Shown: positions 1-41,969 of the stretch, piece by piece | Position numbering within the stretch: the first letter of the stretch is position 1 | Layout of the letters: every line of letters begins with the position of its first letter | Virus record (IMG/VR): IMGVR_UViG_3300013006_000059 | Span: 1-41,969 of that record | Strand: one strand, 5' to 3' | From: a virus | Length of the DNA: 41,969 nucleotides | Position numbers and translations under genes: made by a program | Notes under the pieces: model-generated | Told to the model about the DNA's origin: nothing | The model's input: the letters and a program-made list of their open reading frames with translations, nothing else | Databases searched by the model: none

Positions 1-93
1 AATGTTGAAAAATCTAATATTTCAATTCACTGTGAACCACACGACAACTTCTTTACAGAACAAATGCTTGTTATGGAGTCTTTGCCTCACTAA
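1..93 (+). CDS. C-terminal end of an unknown protein (cut by window start)
   Basis: Frame 1 is open from the first base to a TAA at 91-93 and gives 30 residues ending in MESLPH. The sequence runs directly into the window edge, so this is the tail of a longer gene. It is followed after 36 bases by the first gene of the oxygenase cluster and has the same AT-rich composition, so it may belong to that cluster. Nothing in the 30 residues identifies a family. Confidence 0.5.
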   Translation, partial: NVEKSNISIHCEPHDNFFTEQMLVMESLPH

Positions 94-110
94 TCTTTAT
101 ATGATACAAT
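82..110 (+). promoter_or_regulatory. Promoter with extended -10 upstream of the oxygenase cluster
   Basis: TTGCCT at 82-87 is a 4/6 match to a -35 box. A 17-base spacer separates it from TACAAT at 105-110, which is preceded by TGA to form TGATACAAT, an extended -10. Transcription would begin near 117, leaving a short leader containing GGGGG before the ATG at 130. The element belongs to the TGnTATAAT family found repeatedly in this window. Confidence 0.5.
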
Positions 111-115
111 TGTAT
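104..115 (+). promoter_or_regulatory. Perfect 12-base palindrome over the -10 box (possible operator)
   Basis: ATACAATTGTAT is identical to its own reverse complement and covers the -10 hexamer of the promoter at 82-110. A dimeric repressor bound here would block RNA polymerase. The same palindrome was not seen at the other promoters of the window. Chance occurrence in AT-rich DNA is possible. Confidence 0.3.
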
Positions 116-129
116 AAATTGGGGGCAAG

Positions 130-879
130 ATGAGTAATCAAAAACAAAATACTGATATAGAAAATATTATTACTTTTACATCTTCTCTTCCTAAAATGGA
201 AAATGTTTTTCCAGAGCCAGAGCCATTGTCAAAAAATATTCCAGAATGGTATAAGTTACAACTATCGTATATAGAGAATGATAAAACACCAGAAAACGGT
301 AATCAAAAATTAACAATTAAAAAATGTCAAGCAATATTTGATGTTTTATCAATGGGATATACACTAAAGGCCCCATGTGATATTTACATAGATACATTAG
401 ATGGAGAAACTTTAAAATTTGATGTTGCTGGAAAGATTCCGCCTAGACATCCATTAACTGGGTCTCATGCTAAAGAACAATTTGATAAAATGCCTATTGA
501 TCCAGACTTTTATGTAAGAGATTTATTAAGATTAAATATGATTTGGTTAATAAAAACACAGCCAGGACATAGTTGCCTTTTTATGAATCCAATGCTTGGC
601 GACTCATCCCCACTGACGGCTGTTCCAGGGGTTATAGATACTGATGAATTTTATCCAACTGGTTTATTTTCATTTTTTGTTAAAAAAAATTATAAGGGAA
701 TAGTTAAAAAGGGAACACCTTTATTACAAGTAATACCATTTAAAAGAGAAGACTTTTCTCATGAAATTATAAAAGACACAGATATTAATAATAAATTAGA
801 TGAACAAATGTATCACATAAGAACAGTCTTTAACTCTGGCTATAAAACTCTATTTTGGAAAAATAAAAGATATAAATGA
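130..879 (+). CDS. DUF6065-like protein, paralogue A
   Basis: Unknown function; 249 residues. It has an IPEWYK motif near residue 40, a KKCQAIFDVLSMGYTL segment near 64-79, and a C-terminal block with PGHSCLF, PGVIDTDEF and then KKGTPLLQVIPFKRE. This order (P-W near the N-terminus, a GY/GW segment, a G-V-I/V-D/E-T-D step, then G-T/E-P...Q-IP) is what I recall of the DUF6065 family, named from memory. The last two blocks also loosely resemble the D-Y-R-G and G-x-R-I-A-Q steps of dUTPase folds, which is only a hint. The gene at 2085-2813 is a clear paralogue and that at 1451-2101 a divergent one. It opens the accessory operon and overlaps the next gene by ATGA. Confidence 0.6.
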   Translation: MSNQKQNTDIENIITFTSSLPKMENVFPEPEPLSKNIPEWYKLQLSYIENDKTPENGNQKLTIKKCQAIFDVLSMGYTLKAPCDIYIDTLDGETLKFDVAGKIPPRHPLTGSHAKEQFDKMPIDPDFYVRDLLRLNMIWLIKTQPGHSCLFMNPMLGDSSPLTAVPGVIDTDEFYPTGLFSFFVKKNYKGIVKKGTPLLQVIPFKREDFSHEIIKDTDINNKLDEQMYHIRTVFNSGYKTLFWKNKRYK

Positions 880-1451
880 AAAATATAGTAATAAATGAAT
901 TATTGACAAATGATAGTGTTATTTTATTAAAAAATATAATTGACTTAGAGTTAAATAGAAAAGACATTTGGGTAAATTATGAAACATATTATTCAACAAA
1001 AAATAGTAAAGAATTTTTACAAAAAAATATAGATACTGTAGGGGTTATAAAAACTGATTTTGCAAGAACAGATTTAAGGAATTTAGAAATTCCTATAGAG
1101 ATAATAAATGAAATATCACAAAAACTTATAGAAAATAATTTACTAAATTATAGTTATATTAATAATGCAACTGCAATGCTATATAATAAAAATTTGGGAA
1201 ATCCAAAACTTACAGAACATGTAGATTCAACAGAACATAAAAATACAATTATGGTTGATTATCAATTAGAATCAAATACCAGTTGGGCACTTTCTGTAGA
1301 AGGTAAAGACTATACCTTATTAGATAACCAGGCACTTATTTTTTGCGGTAATCAGCAAAAGCATTCAAGAAAATTTAAAAAATTTAATGATAATGAATTT
1401 ATAACAAATATAATATTCAGGTTTAGTCCCTATGAAAATACAAATTTATAA
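876..1451 (+). CDS. Predicted Fe(II)/2-oxoglutarate-dependent oxygenase 1
   Basis: 191 residues. The C-terminal half reads as a double-stranded beta-helix oxygenase core: TEHVDS supplies the HxD iron ligands (H115, D117), followed by the strand IMVDYQL, a DNQALIFCG strand and a distal histidine in QKHSRKF (H163). Such enzymes hydroxylate a protein, nucleotide or small molecule using 2-oxoglutarate and O2. The 2-oxoglutarate-binding arginine is less clear; R182 is a candidate but lies farther from H163 than the usual ten or so residues. The start overlaps the previous gene by four bases (ATGA) and the stop overlaps the next start, so translation is probably coupled. Substrate unknown. Confidence 0.6.
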   Translation: MKNIVINELLTNDSVILLKNIIDLELNRKDIWVNYETYYSTKNSKEFLQKNIDTVGVIKTDFARTDLRNLEIPIEIINEISQKLIENNLLNYSYINNATAMLYNKNLGNPKLTEHVDSTEHKNTIMVDYQLESNTSWALSVEGKDYTLLDNQALIFCGNQQKHSRKFKKFNDNEFITNIIFRFSPYENTNL

Positions 1452-2101
1452 TGACAGTTTTACTTATAAAAAATAATATACTTGGCTCTAAATATTGGAT
1501 TAATTCTGCAGAAAAAGATTTTAGTACATTGGTTGCAGAATCAAAAATGATATCAGAGTTTTCTAATAGCAGTTTATTAAAAAATATGGGTTATAGAGAT
1601 AAAGTTTTAGTACCAGTTAATCCATACGTTGAGTATTTTTATCCAAAACCAGAATTAATTAAAACTAGTACTGGAATAATTTTAAAACAAAAAACGCATG
1701 CAGAGATTTGGGTTGAATACAAAAAGGGTTATTTATATATGCTTGATAAATGTTGGCAAAGACAATTTTATCCATCAAAAAATATATATAATAGTTTAAA
1801 CAATAATCCAGTTTATAGATTTTATGTTCCTTGGACTATAGAATCTCAAGAAAATTTTTTAATTCAAACAGATAGTTTAGTTTTTGATATTTATACAAAA
1901 TCAATAACCTTTTCTAAAAGAAATTTTGATAATAATTTTATCAATACACCTTTTGTTGATTTTACAATAAAGAAATATGGTCCGCACATGAAATCAGACA
2001 ACTATGGTATAGTTAATGTTGGAACACCTATTTATGATATAATAATTAAAAATAGTGATATATCAGAAAGGATTATTAAAGAATATGAGTCAAACGTTTA
2101 A
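1451..2101 (+). CDS. Divergent DUF6065-like protein, paralogue B
   Basis: 216 residues, unknown function. Similarity to its neighbours at 130-879 and 2085-2813 is weak but ordered: a W-x-I-x-S/T-Q step (WTIESQ), then a hydrophobic beta-rich stretch, then YGIVNVGTPIYDIII, which matches the KGIVKKGTPLLQVIP block of paralogue A. The PEWYK and CQAIFD segments are not preserved, so function may have shifted or been lost. It starts by TAATG overlap with the preceding oxygenase and overlaps the following paralogue by 17 bases. Confidence 0.5.
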   Translation: MTVLLIKNNILGSKYWINSAEKDFSTLVAESKMISEFSNSSLLKNMGYRDKVLVPVNPYVEYFYPKPELIKTSTGIILKQKTHAEIWVEYKKGYLYMLDKCWQRQFYPSKNIYNSLNNNPVYRFYVPWTIESQENFLIQTDSLVFDIYTKSITFSKRNFDNNFINTPFVDFTIKKYGPHMKSDNYGIVNVGTPIYDIIIKNSDISERIIKEYESNV

Positions 2102-2813
2102 GTTTATTCCTAGTAATCCTGATAGCCCTAAAGATTCTGAAACTACTCCAACAAAGTCTGTATCTGTTCTTCCAGAATGGTATAAAGATTTGGCGGGGTA
2201 TAAAGATGGGACTAGTCATAGTTTAGAATATTTAAATCCAGTAAATGATCGTGGATCAGACGGATCTGATGTTTCAACAAAACTTTGTTTACCATTTTTT
2301 GATGCTATGGCATCGGGATATATGTATTTATTGGAAAATGATGTTTTAGTTGACATTAATGAAAATGGAAAGCCATCTATTTCGTGGGATCAAGATTCTA
2401 ATTTAATGGATATACGGCCTTCAGTAGATATGGCAATACCTGAAGATTGTCATCCAATACAGTTTGGTGTTAAAATGAATTATTATTGGGAAACTCCAAA
2501 AAATTATTCAACTTTAATCACTCATCCATTAAATAGACCAGATTTGCCATTCTACGTTCCATCTGGTATAGTTGATTCTGATATCTGGGCACTACCAGTA
2601 TTTATTCCATTTTTTATTAAAAAAAGTTTTATTGGAAAAATAAAAAAGGGAACTCCCGTATTTCAAATGATACCAATTAAAAGAGAAGCCTGGAATTTAG
2701 AAGTAGACTATTCAAAAGAGTCATTTCTAAAACATAAAATACGTGAAGAAAAAAGAAGAACACATATAACTGCACATTACAAAAAAACTACTTGGCAAAG
2801 GAAGGAATACTAA
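2085..2813 (+). CDS. DUF6065-like protein, paralogue C
   Basis: 242 residues from the ATG at 2085. An in-frame ATG at 2055 exists, but 2085 gives MSQTFKFIPSNP, a better match to the N-terminus of paralogue A, and a shorter overlap with the upstream gene. It shares with A the LPEWYK motif, an FFDAMASGYMYLL segment, and the C-terminal SGIVDSDIW then IKKGTPVFQMIPIKRE. Function is unknown. Finding it between oxygenase genes repeats the arrangement of paralogue A followed by an oxygenase, suggesting that the pair works together. Confidence 0.6.
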   Translation: MSQTFKFIPSNPDSPKDSETTPTKSVSVLPEWYKDLAGYKDGTSHSLEYLNPVNDRGSDGSDVSTKLCLPFFDAMASGYMYLLENDVLVDINENGKPSISWDQDSNLMDIRPSVDMAIPEDCHPIQFGVKMNYYWETPKNYSTLITHPLNRPDLPFYVPSGIVDSDIWALPVFIPFFIKKSFIGKIKKGTPVFQMIPIKREAWNLEVDYSKESFLKHKIREEKRRTHITAHYKKTTWQRKEY

Positions 2814-2814
2814 T

Positions 2815-3471
2815 ATGGATAGTCAATTTTACAAAAGTCCTAAAATTTATGACAAACCTCATAGATTTTTTGAAAGATATCTTAATAATGATTTAGATAG
2901 TTTGTCAAATTATTTAATCAAACAATATTCTGATATAGAAAATGGAAAAGTTCCAGGAGTAAGCACTAAAAAAGAAACAAGTTGGTCATCATCTGGCAGT
3001 CTTTCAACCATGAAGTGGAAAGATTACAATGTTTTTCAGTTTAACAATGTAGAAATTTATAACGTTTTTAAAGCCGTTAAAGATACAGTGTTAGAAGCAT
3101 GTGAGTATTATGGAATTGATTTTGAAGAACAACAGTATATGGTCCAAGGATGGTTTAATATTAATTACAACCATATTGGTAAACTTGGCTGGCATGAACA
3201 TGGTGGGCCATGGGCTCCATATTTTCATGGCTATTATTGTATAAAATCAGAGCCGTCAACAACATATTATAAAATTGACGACAATGAAAATAACATAAAA
3301 GAAAATATTAATAAAAACAATAGATTGGTTATTTCAGAAATGGGGCATCCTCACGCTATGGGAGATTGGGACTGGGAAGGTCCAAGAATAACATTAGCGT
3401 ATGACATTTATCCATTAAAGGCTTTAATCAGAGATAAAGCATCAGAGCAACACTGGATTCCTTTAATATAA
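2815..3471 (+). CDS. Predicted 2-oxoglutarate oxygenase-like protein 2 (HxH type)
   Basis: 218 residues. The core shows W-H-E-H at 126-129, a strand with HGYYCIKSEPSTTYYKI, then GHPHAMGDWDWEGPRITLAYDI, with H178/H180 and R191 as likely distal histidine and co-substrate arginine. The first iron-binding motif reads H-E-H instead of H-x-D. I recall an H-x-H reading also in the TIGR02466-type putative 2-oxoglutarate oxygenases. An SD-like GGAAGGAA at 2799-2806 precedes the ATG. Substrate is unknown; if the acidic ligand is really absent, iron binding may differ from the four related genes nearby. Confidence 0.5.
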   Translation: MDSQFYKSPKIYDKPHRFFERYLNNDLDSLSNYLIKQYSDIENGKVPGVSTKKETSWSSSGSLSTMKWKDYNVFQFNNVEIYNVFKAVKDTVLEACEYYGIDFEEQQYMVQGWFNINYNHIGKLGWHEHGGPWAPYFHGYYCIKSEPSTTYYKIDDNENNIKENINKNNRLVISEMGHPHAMGDWDWEGPRITLAYDIYPLKALIRDKASEQHWIPLI

Positions 3472-4283
3472 TGAAGATTAAAGTTTTTGTTTATTCTTAT
3501 AAAAACAAAGGTTTGTTAAGTTTTTGTGAAAATTTACAAAAAAATGCTTTTAATGAAGTTGTTATTGATGTTTATGATCAAAACACAATAGATAGATCAG
3601 AACTTTTTAATAAAAAAAGCAACATAAATTATAAACATATAAACTGGGATGACAGAAAAAGTATTTATGATTATAGATTAGAAAGTTTATCTAATAAGTT
3701 TGATTATTTTTTATCAATTTCTGACTCAACTATTTTTAATTTAGGTTGGGATAATGAATTAATAAAAGAATGTGAAAATTTAAATATAGTATCTGGAAAA
3801 GATTTAGTGTCTTTAAAAATTAATAAATTTTTTATTTTAACAGAAAATAAAATATGTGATTATGTATCACAATCACAATGGATAAGCGAAGATTTTATTT
3901 TTTTAAAAATGATAGACTCAAGTTTTTTTCCAAAATTAAATTTTTTAAAAAAGAATGGCGACAACCTGTTGTTGTCAATTTTGTTTACTGAGATTGGATT
4001 TAAAATAAAAAGTATGAAAAGTTCTTTTTATGATAAAATAATCCAAGATGAAAAATATACAGCATATTCAAAATATCATGGGTATAACAAACTATTGTTA
4101 TTAATAAAAAATAAAACAATTAAATATGAAAAGTTTGAAAAATATCATGATCTTGATTTATTAAGTCTAAAACCTTTACCGTTTGACACTGATGATGTTG
4201 CATACAATAAGATAAAGTATACAATAGATACTCCAGATGCAACAAGGTTTCATAGTAAAATAAAAAAAATAGAGATTAAATAA
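3471..4283 (+). CDS. Glycosyltransferase-like protein (GT-A type, tentative)
   Basis: 270 residues. The N-terminus KIKVFVYSYKNKGLL followed by a strand with VVIDVYDQNT looks like the first strand-helix-strand of a GT-A nucleotide-sugar transferase. Next comes WDDRKSIYDYRLESL, then YFLSISDSTIFNLGWDNELI. The pattern R-x-x-x...(I/L)-x-I-D/S-D-S...GWD-x-x-L-I resembles GlcNAc-transferase-type proteins, where the Asp-containing step binds the metal and sugar nucleotide. The C-terminal third is lysine-rich and unassigned. It starts by a TAATG overlap with the preceding oxygenase, so it is in the same operon and could add a sugar to a hydroxyl made by the oxygenases. Assignment rests on pattern only. 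Confidence 0.4.
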   Translation: MKIKVFVYSYKNKGLLSFCENLQKNAFNEVVIDVYDQNTIDRSELFNKKSNINYKHINWDDRKSIYDYRLESLSNKFDYFLSISDSTIFNLGWDNELIKECENLNIVSGKDLVSLKINKFFILTENKICDYVSQSQWISEDFIFLKMIDSSFFPKLNFLKKNGDNLLLSILFTEIGFKIKSMKSSFYDKIIQDEKYTAYSKYHGYNKLLLLIKNKTIKYEKFEKYHDLDLLSLKPLPFDTDDVAYNKIKYTIDTPDATRFHSKIKKIEIK

Positions 4284-4292
4284 GGAGGCAAT

Positions 4293-4892
4293 ATGAATAG
4301 AATTACAGTAATAGAAAATTTTATAGATAAGGATGATGCAACTGTACTGATTAATGAACAAAAAAATCCATCCGAAATAAATCCATATCCAGAATACTAT
4401 AAAGAAAGATATGGTGGTACCGCTTTTCCATATAACAAAAAAGTTATGGATATATTAAAAAAATATTCTATTCTATCAAATAATAAACACAAAGAACTTA
4501 ACGGCTTTGTTAATCCAATTTATACATTTAAAGCATTTGGATCTATGTGGACTACAGGAACAAAGGGTGGGCTACACATAGACGCACAAGGTCCAGAGCC
4601 ATGGATTGAATTTAGTACAATAATGTATTTAAATCATCAATCAGAATATACTGGTGGAAAAATATATTTTCCAAATCAAAATTTTGTTTATGAACCAAAA
4701 CAATATTCTGCAGTATTTTTTCCAAGTTCTGGCAGTGAGTATATTCACGGAATTACAACAGTGAAATCTGGAATAAGACAAACAGCCTTGTATATGCACA
4801 CAAGTATTCCCGAACATGCAGATCCAGATTTTTTGATTAATAATGAAAGTACTAGATGGATGGCTTATGACTACCCACTTACAAAACTTTGA
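4293..4892 (+). CDS. Predicted Fe(II)/2-oxoglutarate oxygenase 3 (prolyl 4-hydroxylase-like)
   Basis: 199 residues with a clear oxygenase core: GGLHIDAQG gives H95 and D97, EFSTIMYLN is the next strand, GGKIYFP follows, and the distal EYIHGITTVKSGIRQTALYM gives H152 and R162 at the usual spacing of ten residues. This is the best-matching member of the set together with the next gene. The start has a strong Shine-Dalgarno AAGGAGG just upstream, suggesting independent translation. It overlaps the next oxygenase gene. Substrate unknown. Confidence 0.75.
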   Translation: MNRITVIENFIDKDDATVLINEQKNPSEINPYPEYYKERYGGTAFPYNKKVMDILKKYSILSNNKHKELNGFVNPIYTFKAFGSMWTTGTKGGLHIDAQGPEPWIEFSTIMYLNHQSEYTGGKIYFPNQNFVYEPKQYSAVFFPSSGSEYIHGITTVKSGIRQTALYMHTSIPEHADPDFLINNESTRWMAYDYPLTKL

Positions 4893-5547
4893 TTTTGAAA
4901 TTTTAGATCTTGGACTTGTTTATTATAAAAATATAATTGATAATCCTCAAGAAATTATAAAAGAAATAGAAAAACTTGAGTTACGCTATTTAAATGATAA
5001 ACAAGAAAAAAATACTAGCATAAAACCATGGATTAAATGGACTTATGGAGAAGGTGATGACCAGTTAATGTTTTGTTGGCAAAAATTTATTCCACAGGTT
5101 AAAGATATTTCTGAACAAGATCCGTACTTTAAAGAACAAATAAAAATTTCTTCTGAGTTATTTGAGGCATTAGAAAAAACTTTAAATCATTATTCAAACA
5201 CATTATATCCTTTTGCTGGTAAAAACATTAAGTCTAGAGAAAAAACTATGCATATATTAAAATATGATAAATCTGGACATCTTCCAGCACATCAAGATCA
5301 GGGTGTTAGTAGCCGTGTTCTATCTGTACTTCTTTATTTAAATGATGATTATGAGGGAGGAGAGATTGAATTCAGACATTCTGGAATAAAATTTAAACCA
5401 AAGGCTGGAAGTATCTTATTTTTTCCATCAAATTTTTTATATGTTCACGAAGTTTATCCAGTAACAAAAGGTCCAAGATATGCGTTGCCAAATTGGTATC
5501 ATAATTTACCAGAAGAAAATAAAAGAAGTTCTACTGGAAAAGAATAG
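4867..5547 (+). CDS. Predicted Fe(II)/2-oxoglutarate oxygenase 4 (prolyl 4-hydroxylase-like)
   Basis: 226 residues from the ATG at 4867, which has GGATGG eight bases upstream; an in-frame ATG at 4843 would add eight residues. The core reads MHILKYDKSGHLPAHQDQG (H142, D144), SVLLYLNDDYEGGEIEF, KAGSILFFP, then YVHEVYPVTKGPRYALPNWY (H194, R204). The spacing and the YxGGE step are those of prolyl 4-hydroxylase-like enzymes. Substrate could be a protein side chain or another phage-modified molecule. The first bases overlap the end of the previous oxygenase gene, so the two are likely co-translated. Confidence 0.75.
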   Translation: MTTHLQNFDFEILDLGLVYYKNIIDNPQEIIKEIEKLELRYLNDKQEKNTSIKPWIKWTYGEGDDQLMFCWQKFIPQVKDISEQDPYFKEQIKISSELFEALEKTLNHYSNTLYPFAGKNIKSREKTMHILKYDKSGHLPAHQDQGVSSRVLSVLLYLNDDYEGGEIEFRHSGIKFKPKAGSILFFPSNFLYVHEVYPVTKGPRYALPNWYHNLPEENKRSSTGKE

Positions 5548-5549
5548 AG

Positions 5550-5567
5550 TATAATCAATAAAGGAGG
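5550..5567 (+). promoter_or_regulatory. -10 box and strong Shine-Dalgarno before oxygenase 5
   Basis: TATAAT at 5550-5555 lies right after the stop of the preceding gene and 17 bases before the ATG at 5573. AAGGAGG at 5561-5567 is a full-strength ribosome binding site with a 5-base gap to the start. There is no TG extension and no good -35 box, so the promoter call is weaker than for the other sites; the ribosome binding site is firm. Confidence 0.4.
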
Positions 5568-5572
5568 ATATT

Positions 5573-6196
5573 ATGGAAAATTTTAATAAATCAGAAGAGT
5601 ACATTATAGAAGATGATAATTTTTTAACAAAAAGTGATCAAGTGCAATTTATTGAAAAAATATTTAAAAATAATGGACATAAAGAAACCCCATTGCCAAA
5701 ATGGAGGGTAACTAATGGTATTGAAATTATTAACGATAAACCTTCTGGAGTATTCCCATATACAGAAACACCGTTAGCATTTAATAATAAAGATTCTAAG
5801 CCATTTTTTATGGTTTTAGGTGATTTAGAGTTAAAAGATTTTAAAGATATTTTTGATAAATTTTGTGATAAACATAACATAAAATATGATAAAATTTTAA
5901 GATCAAGAATAGCCATTACTGGAACAGACAATGAAGATAATTTGCATTATGCACACGTTGACACAATTTTAAAACATGATGTATTTTTATATTATCTTCA
6001 TGATGTTGATGGTGACACTGTTTTTTATGATAAATGGCTTGGAGATAATTTAGATGATGCAAAAATAATAAAAAGAGTTTCTCCTAAAGCAGGTAAGGCT
6101 GTAAGATTTAATGGACATCAGTTTCACTCTAATCACACAACAAATAAGAAACAATTTAGGTGTGTTTTAAACGTATGTTACACGTTAAAAAAATAA
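5573..6196 (+). CDS. Predicted Fe(II)/2-oxoglutarate oxygenase 5
   Basis: 207 residues. Motifs in order: LHYAHVDTILKHDVFLYYL gives H128 and D130, a GDTVFYDKW strand, KAGKAVRFNGHQFHSNHTT gives the distal H185, and QFRCVLNVCY gives R196, eleven residues later. All canonical ligands are present, so it should be active. The start is set by AAGGAGG at 5561-5567. It is the fifth oxygenase-type gene in about 5.3 kb, and little sequence similarity to the others is visible outside the ligand motifs, so it probably acts on a different substrate. Confidence 0.7.
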   Translation: MENFNKSEEYIIEDDNFLTKSDQVQFIEKIFKNNGHKETPLPKWRVTNGIEIINDKPSGVFPYTETPLAFNNKDSKPFFMVLGDLELKDFKDIFDKFCDKHNIKYDKILRSRIAITGTDNEDNLHYAHVDTILKHDVFLYYLHDVDGDTVFYDKWLGDNLDDAKIIKRVSPKAGKAVRFNGHQFHSNHTTNKKQFRCVLNVCYTLKK

Positions 6197-6211
6197 TAAT
6201 TTTTGCATAAA

Positions 6212-6931
6212 ATGATAATTCATAATTATAATAATTTTATTAAAGAAGTAAAAAAAACATCAAATAAAATATTTTTTATAGATGGACCAAGAAGGTGTTC
6301 AACAAACTATATAAGAAGTTGTTTTTATTATATGACACTTAATAAAAATTCTATTGTTTTTATTATGGGGCCAACACCACATGATCCAGTAATGTATTCT
6401 ATTGATGGTAAATATTTGCATAATAAAAATGTTATACATATTGTTCCATTACGTAAAATTTTTCCAGCAATTGTTTCTTCTTTAATTATGAGAGATAAAG
6501 ATTTTATTGAATTATCGGATAACAAACTTTATCTTTTTAATGAAATATATAATTTTATGTTATACTTTAATTTAAATAAAATATACACAAATGTAATAAA
6601 TGTTCCATTAGAAATTTTTAATAACAATGAAGAAAAAATTTTTAATTTATTAGTAAATAAAAACAATGTAGAAACTAAAACAGCAAAGTTTACTAAGGAT
6701 GACGTTATAAAAAATTTAGAAAGAGCAAATCAACTTGGATATGGGGCAGACTTTTATCTTAGATATCACTCATATCCAATTGAAGAACAAAATTCTGAAG
6801 AATACCAATTAACGAAAAACCTTGTTGAAAATTTTGTTAATAAAAATGCAAAAGAATTAATTGACACAATATCAAAAAAATATGAAAATATGTTAGAAGA
6901 AAAAAGAAAAGAATGGAATATTTTAAATTAA
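6212..6931 (+). CDS. Sulfotransferase-like P-loop protein (tentative)
   Basis: 239 residues from the ATG at 6212; a TTG nine bases upstream is also open, but neither has an evident Shine-Dalgarno. The N-terminal IFFIDGPRRCSTNYIRS resembles the 5'-phosphosulfate loop of sulfotransferases (P-R-x-x-S/T-T after a hydrophobic strand). HIVPLRKIFPAIVSSL could be the R...S step that binds the 3' phosphate. The rest is mainly helical and lysine-rich. If correct it would transfer sulfate from PAPS to a hydroxyl or sugar, consistent with the oxygenases and glycosyltransferase-like gene upstream. A different P-loop function remains possible. Confidence 0.35.
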   Translation: MIIHNYNNFIKEVKKTSNKIFFIDGPRRCSTNYIRSCFYYMTLNKNSIVFIMGPTPHDPVMYSIDGKYLHNKNVIHIVPLRKIFPAIVSSLIMRDKDFIELSDNKLYLFNEIYNFMLYFNLNKIYTNVINVPLEIFNNNEEKIFNLLVNKNNVETKTAKFTKDDVIKNLERANQLGYGADFYLRYHSYPIEEQNSEEYQLTKNLVENFVNKNAKELIDTISKKYENMLEEKRKEWNILN

Positions 6932-6969
6932 TAAATAACTAAATATTTTATTAAAATTTAAAAAGACTA

Positions 6970-7012
6970 AAGATTAAGATAAGGTATAGGCTTTTTGTTT
7001 ATAGTTAATCTT
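6970..7012 (+). repeat. Inverted repeat upstream of the reductase promoter
   Basis: AAGATTAA at 6970-6977 and its exact reverse complement TTAATCTT at 7005-7012 are separated by 27 bases. The right arm covers the -35 position of the promoter at 7025-7033. An inner ATAA/TTAT pairing could extend it, but as RNA it would be a weak hairpin without a U-run. It could be an operator pair or chance in AT-rich DNA. Confidence 0.25.
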
Positions 7013-7024
7013 AATTGTAAAATA

Positions 7025-7033
7025 TGATATACT
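7025..7033 (+). promoter_or_regulatory. Extended -10 promoter for the ribonucleotide reductase
   Basis: TGATATACT (TGA at 7025-7027, TATACT at 7028-7033) fits the TGnTATAAT family. No clear -35 box is visible at 17 bases. Transcription would start near 7040 and give a leader of about 49 bases that contains the hairpin at 7037-7063. The gene lies after the longest gap in the window, so a dedicated promoter is expected here. Confidence 0.5.
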
Positions 7034-7036
7034 TGG

Positions 7037-7063
7037 GAGTACTTTATAAAACTAAAAGTACTC
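7037..7063 (+). promoter_or_regulatory. Leader hairpin or operator before the ribonucleotide reductase
   Basis: GAGTACTTT at 7037-7045 is an exact inverted repeat of AAAGTACTC at 7055-7063, with a 9-base AT-rich loop. It covers the predicted transcription start (about 7040) and ends 13 bases before the Shine-Dalgarno GAAGGG. It could act as an operator for a dimeric regulator or as a 5' stem that stabilises or attenuates the message. It does not match the NrdR box consensus as I remember it. Confidence 0.45.
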
Positions 7064-7088
7064 AGGTTAATTTTTGAAGGGTAGTAAG

Positions 7089-9119
7089 ATGTCAGACGTA
7101 TTTTCTTTTCGTTTATTAGAAGACTTTGTAACAAAGTATAAAAATGTAGAGCCTCCATTTGGATTCTCAGATGCTGGATCAAACTCTCTTGGTGAAATAA
7201 CCTTTATACGTACCTATTCACGCATGAAAGAAGACGGTACAAAAGAACGCTGGCATGAAGTATGTCGTAGAGTAATTGAAGGTATGTACTCAGTACAAAA
7301 GAATCATGCTAAAGATAATCGTCTTCCATGGAATGACAATAAAGCACAAAAATCTGCTCAAGAAGCCTTTCAAAGAATGTTTGAACTAAAGTGGACTCCA
7401 CCAGGTCGTGGCTTATGGGCATTTGGAACTCCTATGACTATGGAAAAGCGCAACTCTGCCTCCTTGCAAAATTGTGCAATGGTATCTACTCGTGATATTG
7501 ATCGTAATGATCCAGGAGCCCTATTCGCTTGGGTAATGGATGCATTAATGCTTGGTATTGGAGTTGGTTTTGATACCGTTGGTCAAGACAAAGAAATGAT
7601 GATTTACACTCCTACAGAGCCAGAAAATGTATGGGAAATTCCAGACACCCGCGAAGGCTGGGTAGATTCTGTCAGAATGCTTTTAAACTCATATTTACGT
7701 CCTAATCAGGCTATACAAAAGTTTAACTATGACCTTATCCGTCCTCTAGGTGCCCCTATAAAAGGCTTTGGAGGGGTTGCTAGCGGTCCAGCACCACTCA
7801 TTGCACTACACGATAAAATCAACACAGTCATTGGTGGCAGAGCAGGAGAAAAACTTGACTCTCGTGCAATTGTAGATATTGTAAATCTTATTGGTACATG
7901 TGTTGTTTCTGGAAATGTTCGTCGTTCTGCTACCTTGGCTTTAGGACTGCCAGAAGATAAAGATTTTATTAATTTAAAAAATTCAGAAGTTTTTCCAGAT
8001 AGAAATTCATTTGATTCAAAAAATCCAGGATGGGCTTGGATGTCCAATAACTCTATATCTGCAGAAGTTGGAACAAAGTATGAAGATTATGTTAACTTAA
8101 TTGCAGATAATGGAGAGCCAGGATTTATTTGGCTAGATGTTGCTAGAGAGTATGGAAGATTAGCAGACGCTCCAGACTATAAAGATTCTCGTGTTATGGG
8201 GTTTAACCCTTGCGCTGAACAGCCATTGGAAAGTTATGAACTATGCACACTTGTAGAAGTTCATTTGAATCGTCATGAAGACAAAGAAGACTTTCTTCGT
8301 ACATTAAAGTTTGCATACCTATATGGCAAAACCGTTACATTAATGCCAACACATTGGCAAACCACAAATGGAATTATGCAACGTAATCGTCGTATTGGAA
8401 CATCTTTGACTGGCATTGCGTCATTTGCAGATACAAAAGGTATTCCAGTAATTCGTGAATGGATGGACGAAGGTTATAAAAAGATTCGTGCATACGATCA
8501 CTCATACTCAGAATGGCTATGTGTACGTGAGTCAATTCGTGTAACTACCGTTAAACCTTCTGGCTCTGTGTCACTACTTTCTGGCGCAACACCTGGAGTT
8601 CATTGGGGTCCTGGAGGAGCATTCTATCTTCGTGCTATTAGGTTTGGAAATACAGACCCAATGCTTCATTTATTTAAAGCAGCAGGGTATAAAATTGAAG
8701 CAGATCTAGTATCAGCAAACACATCAGTAGTATATTTCCCAGTAGCATCTGGACATCCAAGATCTGAAAAAGATGTAAGTCTTTTTGAAAAGATTGGTTT
8801 GGCAGCAACTGCTCAAAAATATTGGTCTGATAATGGAGTATCTGTAACTCTTTCATTTGATAAAGAGTTAGAAACGAAACATGTTGCTCCAGCACTTCAT
8901 ATGTACGAAGGTCAACTTAAGGCAGTGTCATTTTTACCAATGGGCAATCAAACATATCCTCAACAGCCATATACTCAAATAACAAAAGAAGAGTATAACT
9001 CGTACGTTGGAACAATTGGCAAAATTGATTGGTCTGCTATTTATGATGGCAAAGATAATCTTGATGCTGAATCTGAAAAATACTGCTCAACAGACGCATG
9101 CGAAATTAAATTATATTAG
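7089..9119 (+). CDS. nrdJ: Class II ribonucleotide reductase, monomeric adenosylcobalamin-dependent type
   Basis: Reduces ribonucleotides (triphosphates in the known monomeric class II enzymes) to deoxyribonucleotides for phage DNA synthesis. 676 residues; start ATG 7089 is preceded by GAAGGG at 7076-7081. All key residues are visible: C129 (LQNCAMVS) and C386 (YELCTLVEV) form the active-site redox pair, FNPCAEQ carries the thiyl-radical cysteine C375 and E377, and the C-terminal C666-x4-C671 (CSTDAC) matches the shuttle pair of Lactobacillus leichmannii RTPR. The 11-residue spacing of C375 and C386 is the same as in RTPR (408/419). The N-terminal region is shorter than RTPR (739 residues). 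Needs host cobalamin and thioredoxin; no thioredoxin gene is seen nearby. It sits between the oxygenase cluster and the virion genes, with its own promoter. No intein is visible. Confidence 0.95.
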   Translation: MSDVFSFRLLEDFVTKYKNVEPPFGFSDAGSNSLGEITFIRTYSRMKEDGTKERWHEVCRRVIEGMYSVQKNHAKDNRLPWNDNKAQKSAQEAFQRMFELKWTPPGRGLWAFGTPMTMEKRNSASLQNCAMVSTRDIDRNDPGALFAWVMDALMLGIGVGFDTVGQDKEMMIYTPTEPENVWEIPDTREGWVDSVRMLLNSYLRPNQAIQKFNYDLIRPLGAPIKGFGGVASGPAPLIALHDKINTVIGGRAGEKLDSRAIVDIVNLIGTCVVSGNVRRSATLALGLPEDKDFINLKNSEVFPDRNSFDSKNPGWAWMSNNSISAEVGTKYEDYVNLIADNGEPGFIWLDVAREYGRLADAPDYKDSRVMGFNPCAEQPLESYELCTLVEVHLNRHEDKEDFLRTLKFAYLYGKTVTLMPTHWQTTNGIMQRNRRIGTSLTGIASFADTKGIPVIREWMDEGYKKIRAYDHSYSEWLCVRESIRVTTVKPSGSVSLLSGATPGVHWGPGGAFYLRAIRFGNTDPMLHLFKAAGYKIEADLVSANTSVVYFPVASGHPRSEKDVSLFEKIGLAATAQKYWSDNGVSVTLSFDKELETKHVAPALHMYEGQLKAVSFLPMGNQTYPQQPYTQITKEEYNSYVGTIGKIDWSAIYDGKDNLDAESEKYCSTDACEIKLY

Positions 9120-40418: not shown

Positions 40419-41969
40419 ATGAACTATGTAGGCTTACATGTTCATACTCACTACTCCCTATTTGACGGCATAGCAACTCCACAAGAGTATGTAGACCGTG
40501 CTAGCAAGTTGGGTATGAACGCTCTTGCAATTACAGATCACGGTACACTTTCTGGTCACAGAGAGTTGTATCGTGCTGCAAAAGAAAAGGGTATTAAGCC
40601 AATCCTTGGTTTAGAAGGATACATGTGTGCAGACATATCAGATAAAAGAGATAAGTCTGAAAGAGAAGGTCAACAAGATCTTGTCTATAACCACATTGTC
40701 CTTCTAGCCAAGAACCAAAAAGGTTTAGAAAACCTTAACAAGATTAGTGAGATTGCATGGACAAATGGGTTTTTTAAGAAACCAAGGTTTGATTTTGAGA
40801 TTCTTAAAAAGTATAAAGAAGGAATTATTGTAACGTCTGCTTGTCCTAGTAGCGTTATTGTTAAAGCATTAGAAGAGCAAGAGTTTGCAATTGCTAAAAA
40901 GAACATTAACTGGTTTAAAGATAACTTTGGTAGCGATTACTACATTGAAGTTATGCCACACAATACACCAGAAATAAATAAATATCTTATTGAACTTGCT
41001 GATGAATTTGGTATAAAGGTTGTTGTTACGCCAGACTGTCATCATTCAGATACATTGCAAAGAGAAATACAAGAGTTTAAATTAATTTTAAATACACATG
41101 GAAAAATAAACAAAGAAGCAACATACGAAAAGTCTAAAAAGAAAACAGACATGATGGAACGACTTGATTATTTATACGGACAAGACCGCCAAATAACATT
41201 TAACAAATTTGATATTCATCTATTATCTTATGAAGAAATTAAGGCAGCAATGGAACTGCAGGGTATTGATCGACCAGACATATACTCAAACACAATACTT
41301 TTGGCAGATACAGTAGAAGACTATGACATTAAAGATGGGCTAAATCTTTTACCAGTTCAATATAAAAACCCAGATCAAGAGTTAGCAAACTTAGCGTTTG
41401 CAGGACTTGAAAAGTATCGGCTTACCGATAACTGGCTTGGAAATGATATTTATGAACAAAGACTTGACGAAGAGTTAGAAATTATTCGTAATAAAAAATT
41501 TGCACCATATTTTCTTGTAGTAAGCAATATGATTAATTGGGCTAAAAAAGAAGGTGTTTTAGTTGGTCCAGGTCGTGGATCATCTGCTGGTTCTTTAGTT
41601 TGTTATTTACTTGGTATTACAACAATTGATCCAATAGAACATGGTCTTTTGTTTTTCCGTTTTATTAATCCAGAACGTAACGACTTTCCTGATATTGATA
41701 CGGACATTCAAGATACTCGTCGTGATGAAGTAAAAGATTATTTAGTTAGACAGTATAGACACGTAGCATCTATTGCTACATTCCTTGAGTTTAAAGATAA
41801 AGGTGTTGTAAGAGATGTTGCACGAGTTTTAGATATACCATTAACAGATGTTAACAAAGTATTAAAGTTAGTCGATACTTGGGATGAATATTGTACCTCT
41901 AAAACTACACTGTGGTTTAGAGAAAAATATCCAGAGGTGGAGATTTATGGAGAACAATTACGTGGTCGT
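40419..41969 (+). CDS. dnaE: DNA polymerase III alpha subunit (DnaE type), 5' part, cut by window end
   Basis: Leading and lagging strand polymerase; 517 residues are seen, no stop before the end. PHP domain: H7-x-H9 (HVHTHYS), D40-H41 (TDHGT), E66, H92, C142, D206-x-H208 (PDCHH), the full set of metal ligands, so the PHP site may be an active proofreading exonuclease as in actinobacterial DnaE1. Polymerase motifs: VGPGRGSSAGS near 381 and FPDIDTDIQDTRRDEV near 423, holding the first two catalytic aspartates; the third lies beyond the window. Starts four bases after the ssDNA-binding gene, no clear ribosome site, so probably coupled. Confidence 0.92.
   Translation, partial: MNYVGLHVHTHYSLFDGIATPQEYVDRASKLGMNALAITDHGTLSGHRELYRAAKEKGIKPILGLEGYMCADISDKRDKSEREGQQDLVYNHIVLLAKNQKGLENLNKISEIAWTNGFFKKPRFDFEILKKYKEGIIVTSACPSSVIVKALEEQEFAIAKKNINWFKDNFGSDYYIEVMPHNTPEINKYLIELADEFGIKVVVTPDCHHSDTLQREIQEFKLILNTHGKINKEATYEKSKKKTDMMERLDYLYGQDRQITFNKFDIHLLSYEEIKAAMELQGIDRPDIYSNTILLADTVEDYDIKDGLNLLPVQYKNPDQELANLAFAGLEKYRLTDNWLGNDIYEQRLDEELEIIRNKKFAPYFLVVSNMINWAKKEGVLVGPGRGSSAGSLVCYLLGITTIDPIEHGLLFFRFINPERNDFPDIDTDIQDTRRDEVKDYLVRQYRHVASIATFLEFKDKGVVRDVARVLDIPLTDVNKVLKLVDTWDEYCTSKTTLWFREKYPEVEIYGEQLRGR

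Follow-up and report, generated by a model that had tools for sequence, protein, structure and literature searches.

The viral DNA analysed here, IMG/VR record IMGVR_UViG_3300013006_000059 (positions 1 to 41,969 in full, hereafter the window), carries near its left end a cassette of ten open reading frames, named A to J in order, whose products include firm or probable Fe(II)/2-oxoglutarate (2OG) oxygenases, DUF6065-like proteins and a GT60-like glycosyltransferase, and which is preceded by the truncated end of a further gene, K. We think it fairly probable that the enzymes of this cassette first hydroxylate the repeat in a tail-associated, adhesin-like protein and afterwards attach sugar to it, and we regard the cassette as a putative new form of phage virion modification. 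The operon would make and tailor K, a protein in which fibronectin-III (fn3) domains and an aromatic/proline repeat, (F[TS]PF[GS])n, are followed by a Hint domain at the C-terminus: the oxygenases would hydroxylate residues of the repeat, most likely proline, F would add a sugar to the hydroxylated residue (GlcNAc by analogy), J may attach a further group, and A, C and D, perhaps assembled into a trimer, would have an accessory or scaffolding part or constitute a divergent enzyme. The tailored protein would be incorporated into the virion and may contribute to host binding or stability. Since each FTPFG unit contains a proline, the simplest chemistry would be hydroxylation of that proline and then its O-glycosylation; Phe, Thr or Gly of the repeat may also be the modified residues, and the number of oxygenases, five, suggests more than one site or residue.

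The linkage between repeat and cassette carries this reading. A degenerate DNA pattern for (FTPFG)2F, searched against IMG/VR, returned 85 stretches, from which 80 loci were analysed, and this pattern of the repeat DNA alone retrieved the same cassette; a gene matching the Hint profile is present in 76 of the 80. The control consisted of 80 viral loci (0.92 Mb) anchored on ribonucleotide reductase (RNR), none of which contains the repeat. Oxygenase families occur in 61/80 repeat loci versus 2/80 control loci (Fisher 3e-24), and DUF6065-like proteins in 38/80 versus 4/80 (Fisher 5e-10); with profiles trained without the repeat-hit contigs, oxygenases are still found in 51/75 repeat loci versus 2/80 control loci. 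The association is also one-sided: among the 23 dereplicated repeat genes flanked on either side by 3 kb or more, the cassette, counted within 3 kb, lies downstream in 22 and upstream in none, always on the same strand, with oxygenases in 19. The number of repeats does not correlate with the number of oxygenase genes (rho 0.17, p 0.27), only the presence or absence of oxygenase genes differing (27/33 vs 4/10, p 0.017). Three proline-free (FGA)n repeat genes (L125, L127, L128; such labels denote contigs) are followed by A, with no oxygenase or transferase, which fits proline as the target, but the three are probably related and carry small weight.

In the window, K is represented by positions 1..93 of the plus strand, which hold the final 30 codons of a truncated gene with their stop and encode the C-terminal end of the Hint domain of the candidate substrate; the preliminary description, made from the letters alone, had missed it. 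These bases translate to NVEKSNISIHCEPHDNFFTEQMLVMESLPH followed by a stop, the translation of K in the window ending in NISIHCEPHDNFFTEQMLVMESLPH and the stop, and complete homologues with the same end are present in L005, L006, L007, L009, L015 and L017. In these relatives the full architecture comprises one to three fn3 domains, tandem FTPFG-type pentapeptides and a C-terminal Hint-like domain, for which Intein_splicing matches stay below the cut-off (best 5.2e-6). A contig from another sample, L093, shares 96% identity with window positions 1-99 and holds a complete K gene with no cassette within reach 3' of it; a second K gene lies at the end of this contig and is cut short directly after FTPFGFTPFGFTPFGFTP. 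Because K is duplicated in some phages, and because the first K gene of L093 stands without a cassette, the K copy that adjoins the cassette in the window is one that we infer. The contigs L003 and L004 likewise end inside K; the repeats and duplicated Hint ends are the likely cause of assembly breaks at this gene, and if they defeat assembly, K is probably under-reported in metagenomes.

The surroundings of K point to the phage tail. The genes directly 5' of it match tail fibre, minor tail and virion structural families, and a tblastn search of cultured phages with one K protein found the Hint domains of an Erwinia jumbo phage only; in that phage, a related Hint domain occurs together with collagen-like repeats in a protein that is annotated as virion structural and adjoins a tail-fibre gene. 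A tail location of K is thereby supported by sequence context, though not proven. The preliminary description had left the target open among a virion protein, a host surface glycan and a modified nucleotide; the neighbourhood evidence favours the first, and specifically a tail protein with an aromatic/proline repeat.

The cassette itself is confirmed as ten open reading frames on the plus strand between positions 130 and 6931, neighbours either overlapping or being separated by at most 25 bases. It is conserved in related phages, its absence from all of which the preliminary description had named as a refuting outcome: all ten genes are kept in the same order in L003, L004, L005 and L006, G, H and J are missing from L007, and subsets are present in the more distant contigs L009, L014, L015 and L017. 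The ratio of nonsynonymous to synonymous substitution rates (dN/dS) lies below 0.45 for A to I, indicating purifying selection, and at 0.63-0.67 for J, the fastest-evolving gene of the cassette. No fusions between domains of the cassette families were found, and an Rfam scan of the window returned no RNA family.

Five oxygenases had been proposed from visible ligand motifs, and the proposal stands at graded strength. Oxygenase identity is firm by family membership for G (4293..4892; ligands H95, D97, H152, R162) and H (4867..5547; PF13640 at E 4.6e-18; phrog_61), both of which pass the PF13640 cut-off; the metal ligands and distal Arg of G are 100% conserved among its homologues, and those of H are 69-91% kept in a mixed set, the window protein having all four. 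It is firm by predicted fold for E (2815..3471), which has no sequence match and is the sole weak oxygenase that was modelled: with a predicted local distance difference test score (pLDDT) of 91.6, the model has the expected fold, resembling in Foldseek 2OG oxygenases including prolyl hydroxylases, among them HIF prolyl hydroxylase PHD2, the bacterial EF-Tu prolyl hydroxylase and a Dictyostelium PHD, and H127, H129, H180 and R191 are invariant across 39 E proteins. The double-stranded beta-helix is thus supported by model and Foldseek for E and by PF13640 for G and H. B and I are probable oxygenases, judging by their conserved ligands: B (876..1451; H115, D117, H163, R165) retains HxD...H...R in 13/13 homologues and has no family match at cut-off, and I (5573..6196; H128, D130, H185, R196; phrog_274 at 2.6e-20) has a PF13640 match below cut-off, its homologues keeping H/H/R in 100% and D in 7/8. 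Profile comparison detects no similarity between E and B, and the oxygenases are therefore old and divergent rather than recent duplicates. Searches of PDB sequences with profiles of A, E, F, B, J and I gave nothing significant. The phrog_274 match is common to I, G and H, and G and H match both phrog_274 and phrog_2297; the PHROG label 'DNA endonuclease V' carried by these two families was set aside, and it is probably misleading, covering proteins with 2OG-oxygenase ligands.

The two transferases fared differently. F (3471..4283) is, on profile evidence, a member of a GT60-like glycosyltransferase family close to PF11397: 20 of 30 family members match PF11397 at E<=1 (best 6.6e-7) and the homologue in L014 exceeds the cut-off (25.8 bits vs 21), the window protein itself giving no PF11397 match. 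Gnt1, a GT60 member, adds GlcNAc to the hydroxyproline of Skp1 (PMC6939170). J (6203..6931, with an ATG at 6212), described earlier as sulfotransferase-like, is at that point a motif-level guess: GPRRCSTNY and ...PLRxxxxxxxSS were spotted by eye, and no match was found in Pfam (E<0.05) or among PDB sequences. A gene fusing APS-kinase-like and nucleotidyltransferase-like parts follows the cassette in two relatives (L007:9594-10346, L015:12394-13200) and possibly supplies activated sulfate or a cofactor.

Three DUF6065-like proteins were proposed, and all three are retained. A (130..879) and D (2085..2813) share phrog_7084, and C (1451..2101), a divergent paralogue, is joined to them by profile-profile comparison (E 3.3e-6, probability 88%). 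None of the three window proteins matches PF19541 (DUF6065) at E<=1, and relatives in two family sets do (16/45 and 25/46, best E 8.4e-9), which places the window proteins, as far as their sequences tell, at the edge of that family. The model of A (pLDDT 91.9) has a fold like that of dUTPases and dCTP deaminases, its best structural matches, with modest scores (E about 3e-3), and profile comparison sets its GVIDTD and GTPxxQ on dUTPase motifs III and IV (E 0.033 and 0.0043, each a single comparison). A and D are thus like this superfamily in fold and in the placement of the two motifs, and unlike it in that motif V is absent, the motif II Arg is not kept and the sequence score is weak, with no PF00692 (dUTPase) match in the window. 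We read A as a distant jelly-roll relative of dUTPases with a new role; that A, C and D, which recur together, form a heterotrimer is speculation.

This fold keeps a nucleotide role possible for the DUF6065 part, and with it an alternative that we consider unlikely without dismissing it, namely that the cassette hypermodifies nucleotides or DNA bases, the oxygenases hydroxylating a base, F glycosylating it and the dUTPase-like proteins controlling pools beside RNR. A class II-type RNR gene (phrog_367) indeed adjoins the cassette 3' in the window, H has a weak Tet_JBP match (E 1.5e-4, below cut-off), and the Streptomyces phage Yaboi has a single glycosyltransferase at the position directly upstream of RNR. 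In the haloarchaeal viruses HF2 and HSTV-2 (L020, L019), a lone DUF6065-like gene homologous to A adjoins RNR and thymidylate synthase, respectively. Yet the cassette occurs in only 2-4 of the 80 RNR-anchored loci whereas repeat genes nearly always have it, no RNR directly follows it in L007, L015 or the L130-L138 set, and its linkage to thymidylate synthase-like hydroxymethylases was not seen. The weak dUTPase similarity described above speaks against this alternative as well, as does the L017 phage, in which a genuine dUTPase coexists with A.

Tailoring of a host-surface or secreted glycan or small molecule, for example to block superinfection, seems to us improbable. For glycosyltransferases of freshwater actinophages, the host wall or DNA has been proposed as the target (PMC10202952), and some support comes from a second layout: the search anchored on the DUF6065-like protein gave, besides K-linked loci, loci with the order C-A-D-F-G-H and no K (group (b), L143-L184), and these clusters lie near a carbamoyltransferase and near subtilase-like and metalloprotease-like proteins with signal peptides. 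Such tailoring leaves the one-sided adjacency to the tail repeat gene unexplained, and none of the cassette genes was identified as one for a lipid carrier or for export.

Very unlikely, in our view, is a third explanation, in which the repeat-Hint protein is the precursor of a released, tailored peptide of the ribosomally synthesized and post-translationally modified (RiPP-like) kind, cut out by its Hint domain. A precursor followed by tailoring enzymes is a RiPP layout, and both Hint C1 and the terminal HN(K) are kept in about 15 of 58 dereplicated K proteins; most Hint domains, the window type included, lack terminal HN and C1, however, the repeat proteins of L165 and L177 have no Hint domain, no transporter or leader peptide was seen, and K stands in a tail-fibre setting. 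For cyanophage 2OG oxygenases, a role in host metabolism (2-oxoglutarate/nitrogen signalling) or in DNA repair has been proposed (PMC3037559, PMC2984593); for those of the cassette we hold such a role to be barely credible, since a metabolite sink would not lead one to expect five different oxygenases in an operon that also encodes a transferase and a candidate repeat substrate.

Several observations weigh against repeat tailoring by the cassette. The repeat of the window's own K falls outside the contig edge, the repeat gene of L064/L071 has no cassette within reach, and the proline-containing repeat genes of L126, L136 and L137 have only A downstream. The FTPFG/Hint gene is absent from group (b), the dUTPase-like fold of A is the strongest argument for a nucleotide role, and the PF11397 matches and folds leave the substrate unfixed. 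Phylogenetic kinship among the counted loci is handled only by the dereplication used, and the support is computational throughout.

The cassette is, at the same time, wider than the FTPFG repeat alone, and low-complexity repeat proteins recur beside it. Four group (b) loci (L144, L148, L155, L182) have large Pro/Thr-rich repeat proteins upstream, and 2OG-oxygenase-like and DUF6065-like genes stand in a row 3' of fn3 proteins whose repeats are (PFF)n or PPFFPPSF (L165:221-1150, L177:1425-2267). The DUF6065-anchored search also gave loci that are preceded by Gly-rich or collagen-like proteins or lie next to a tryptophan halogenase; flavin tryptophan halogenase genes stand beside DUF6065-like genes in L186:5357-6949 (IMG/VR) and L018:5930-9041 (cyanophage S-RIM44). 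Outside these settings, the DUF6065 gene of Sinorhizobium pSymA is a lone gene with no oxygenases in its neighbourhood, an uninformative setting, and a Bacteroidota-side survey found DUF6065 in 2/296 genomes.

The source virus is a tailed phage. Beyond RNR, the window encodes a 1210-aa protein without family matches and then portal, maturation protease and capsid genes, the portal being 44% identical to Streptomyces phages of Stanwilliamsviridae; a DNA polymerase III alpha-like gene at 40419-41969 is cut by the right end, so that the window is a genome fragment. No near-identical phage was found in INPHARED with window positions 1-9000, and the cassette was not found when cultured phages were searched by tblastn with E, F, C and two K proteins.

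Among known systems, the Skp1 system of Dictyostelium and Toxoplasma (PhyA with Gnt1/GT60) likewise joins a PHD-type 2OG oxygenase to a PF11397/GT60-type transferase on a proline-bearing protein substrate, there cytoplasmic (PMC6939170), as is proposed for the cassette, which differs in being phage-encoded and in having up to five oxygenases, a repetitive tail-like substrate candidate, DUF6065 proteins and an activity that we infer. In the cyanophage S-RIM44 cluster (L018), Gly-rich proteins and a structural gene precede A- and I-like genes; this cluster differs in its two tryptophan halogenases, C, F, G and H not being detected there. Freeman et al. reportedly described in 2023 that phage-encoded glycosyltransferases decorate mycobacteriophage virions, and we know of no oxygenase step or DUF6065 protein described for that system. 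In such virion glycosylation, as cited in PMC10955285, phage enzymes act on the phage's own structural proteins, as is proposed for the cassette, the candidate acceptor here being a short tandem repeat. Within a literature search that left subscription papers and preprints outside its scope, we found no description of this phage system and no paper naming DUF6065.

Ligands, folds and profile matches uphold the preliminary description of 2OG oxygenases, DUF6065-like proteins and a glycosyltransferase as members of a tailoring cassette, and its order of hydroxylation before glycosylation is plausible. Among aquatic viruses, phage-encoded 2OG oxygenases are a common finding, and a conserved operon that ties several of them to one repeat protein offers a concrete, testable substrate. 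If the proposal is true, it would give DUF6065 its first functional context, and phages would use a hydroxylate-then-glycosylate chemistry best known from eukaryotes. Tentatively, and with more doubt than confidence, we extend it to the suggestion that uncultured, widespread phages build a hydroxylated, glycosylated (hydroxyproline-glycoside-like) low-complexity tail protein, in which DUF6065 may be a new accessory or catalytic part and the enzymes may vary with the repeat.

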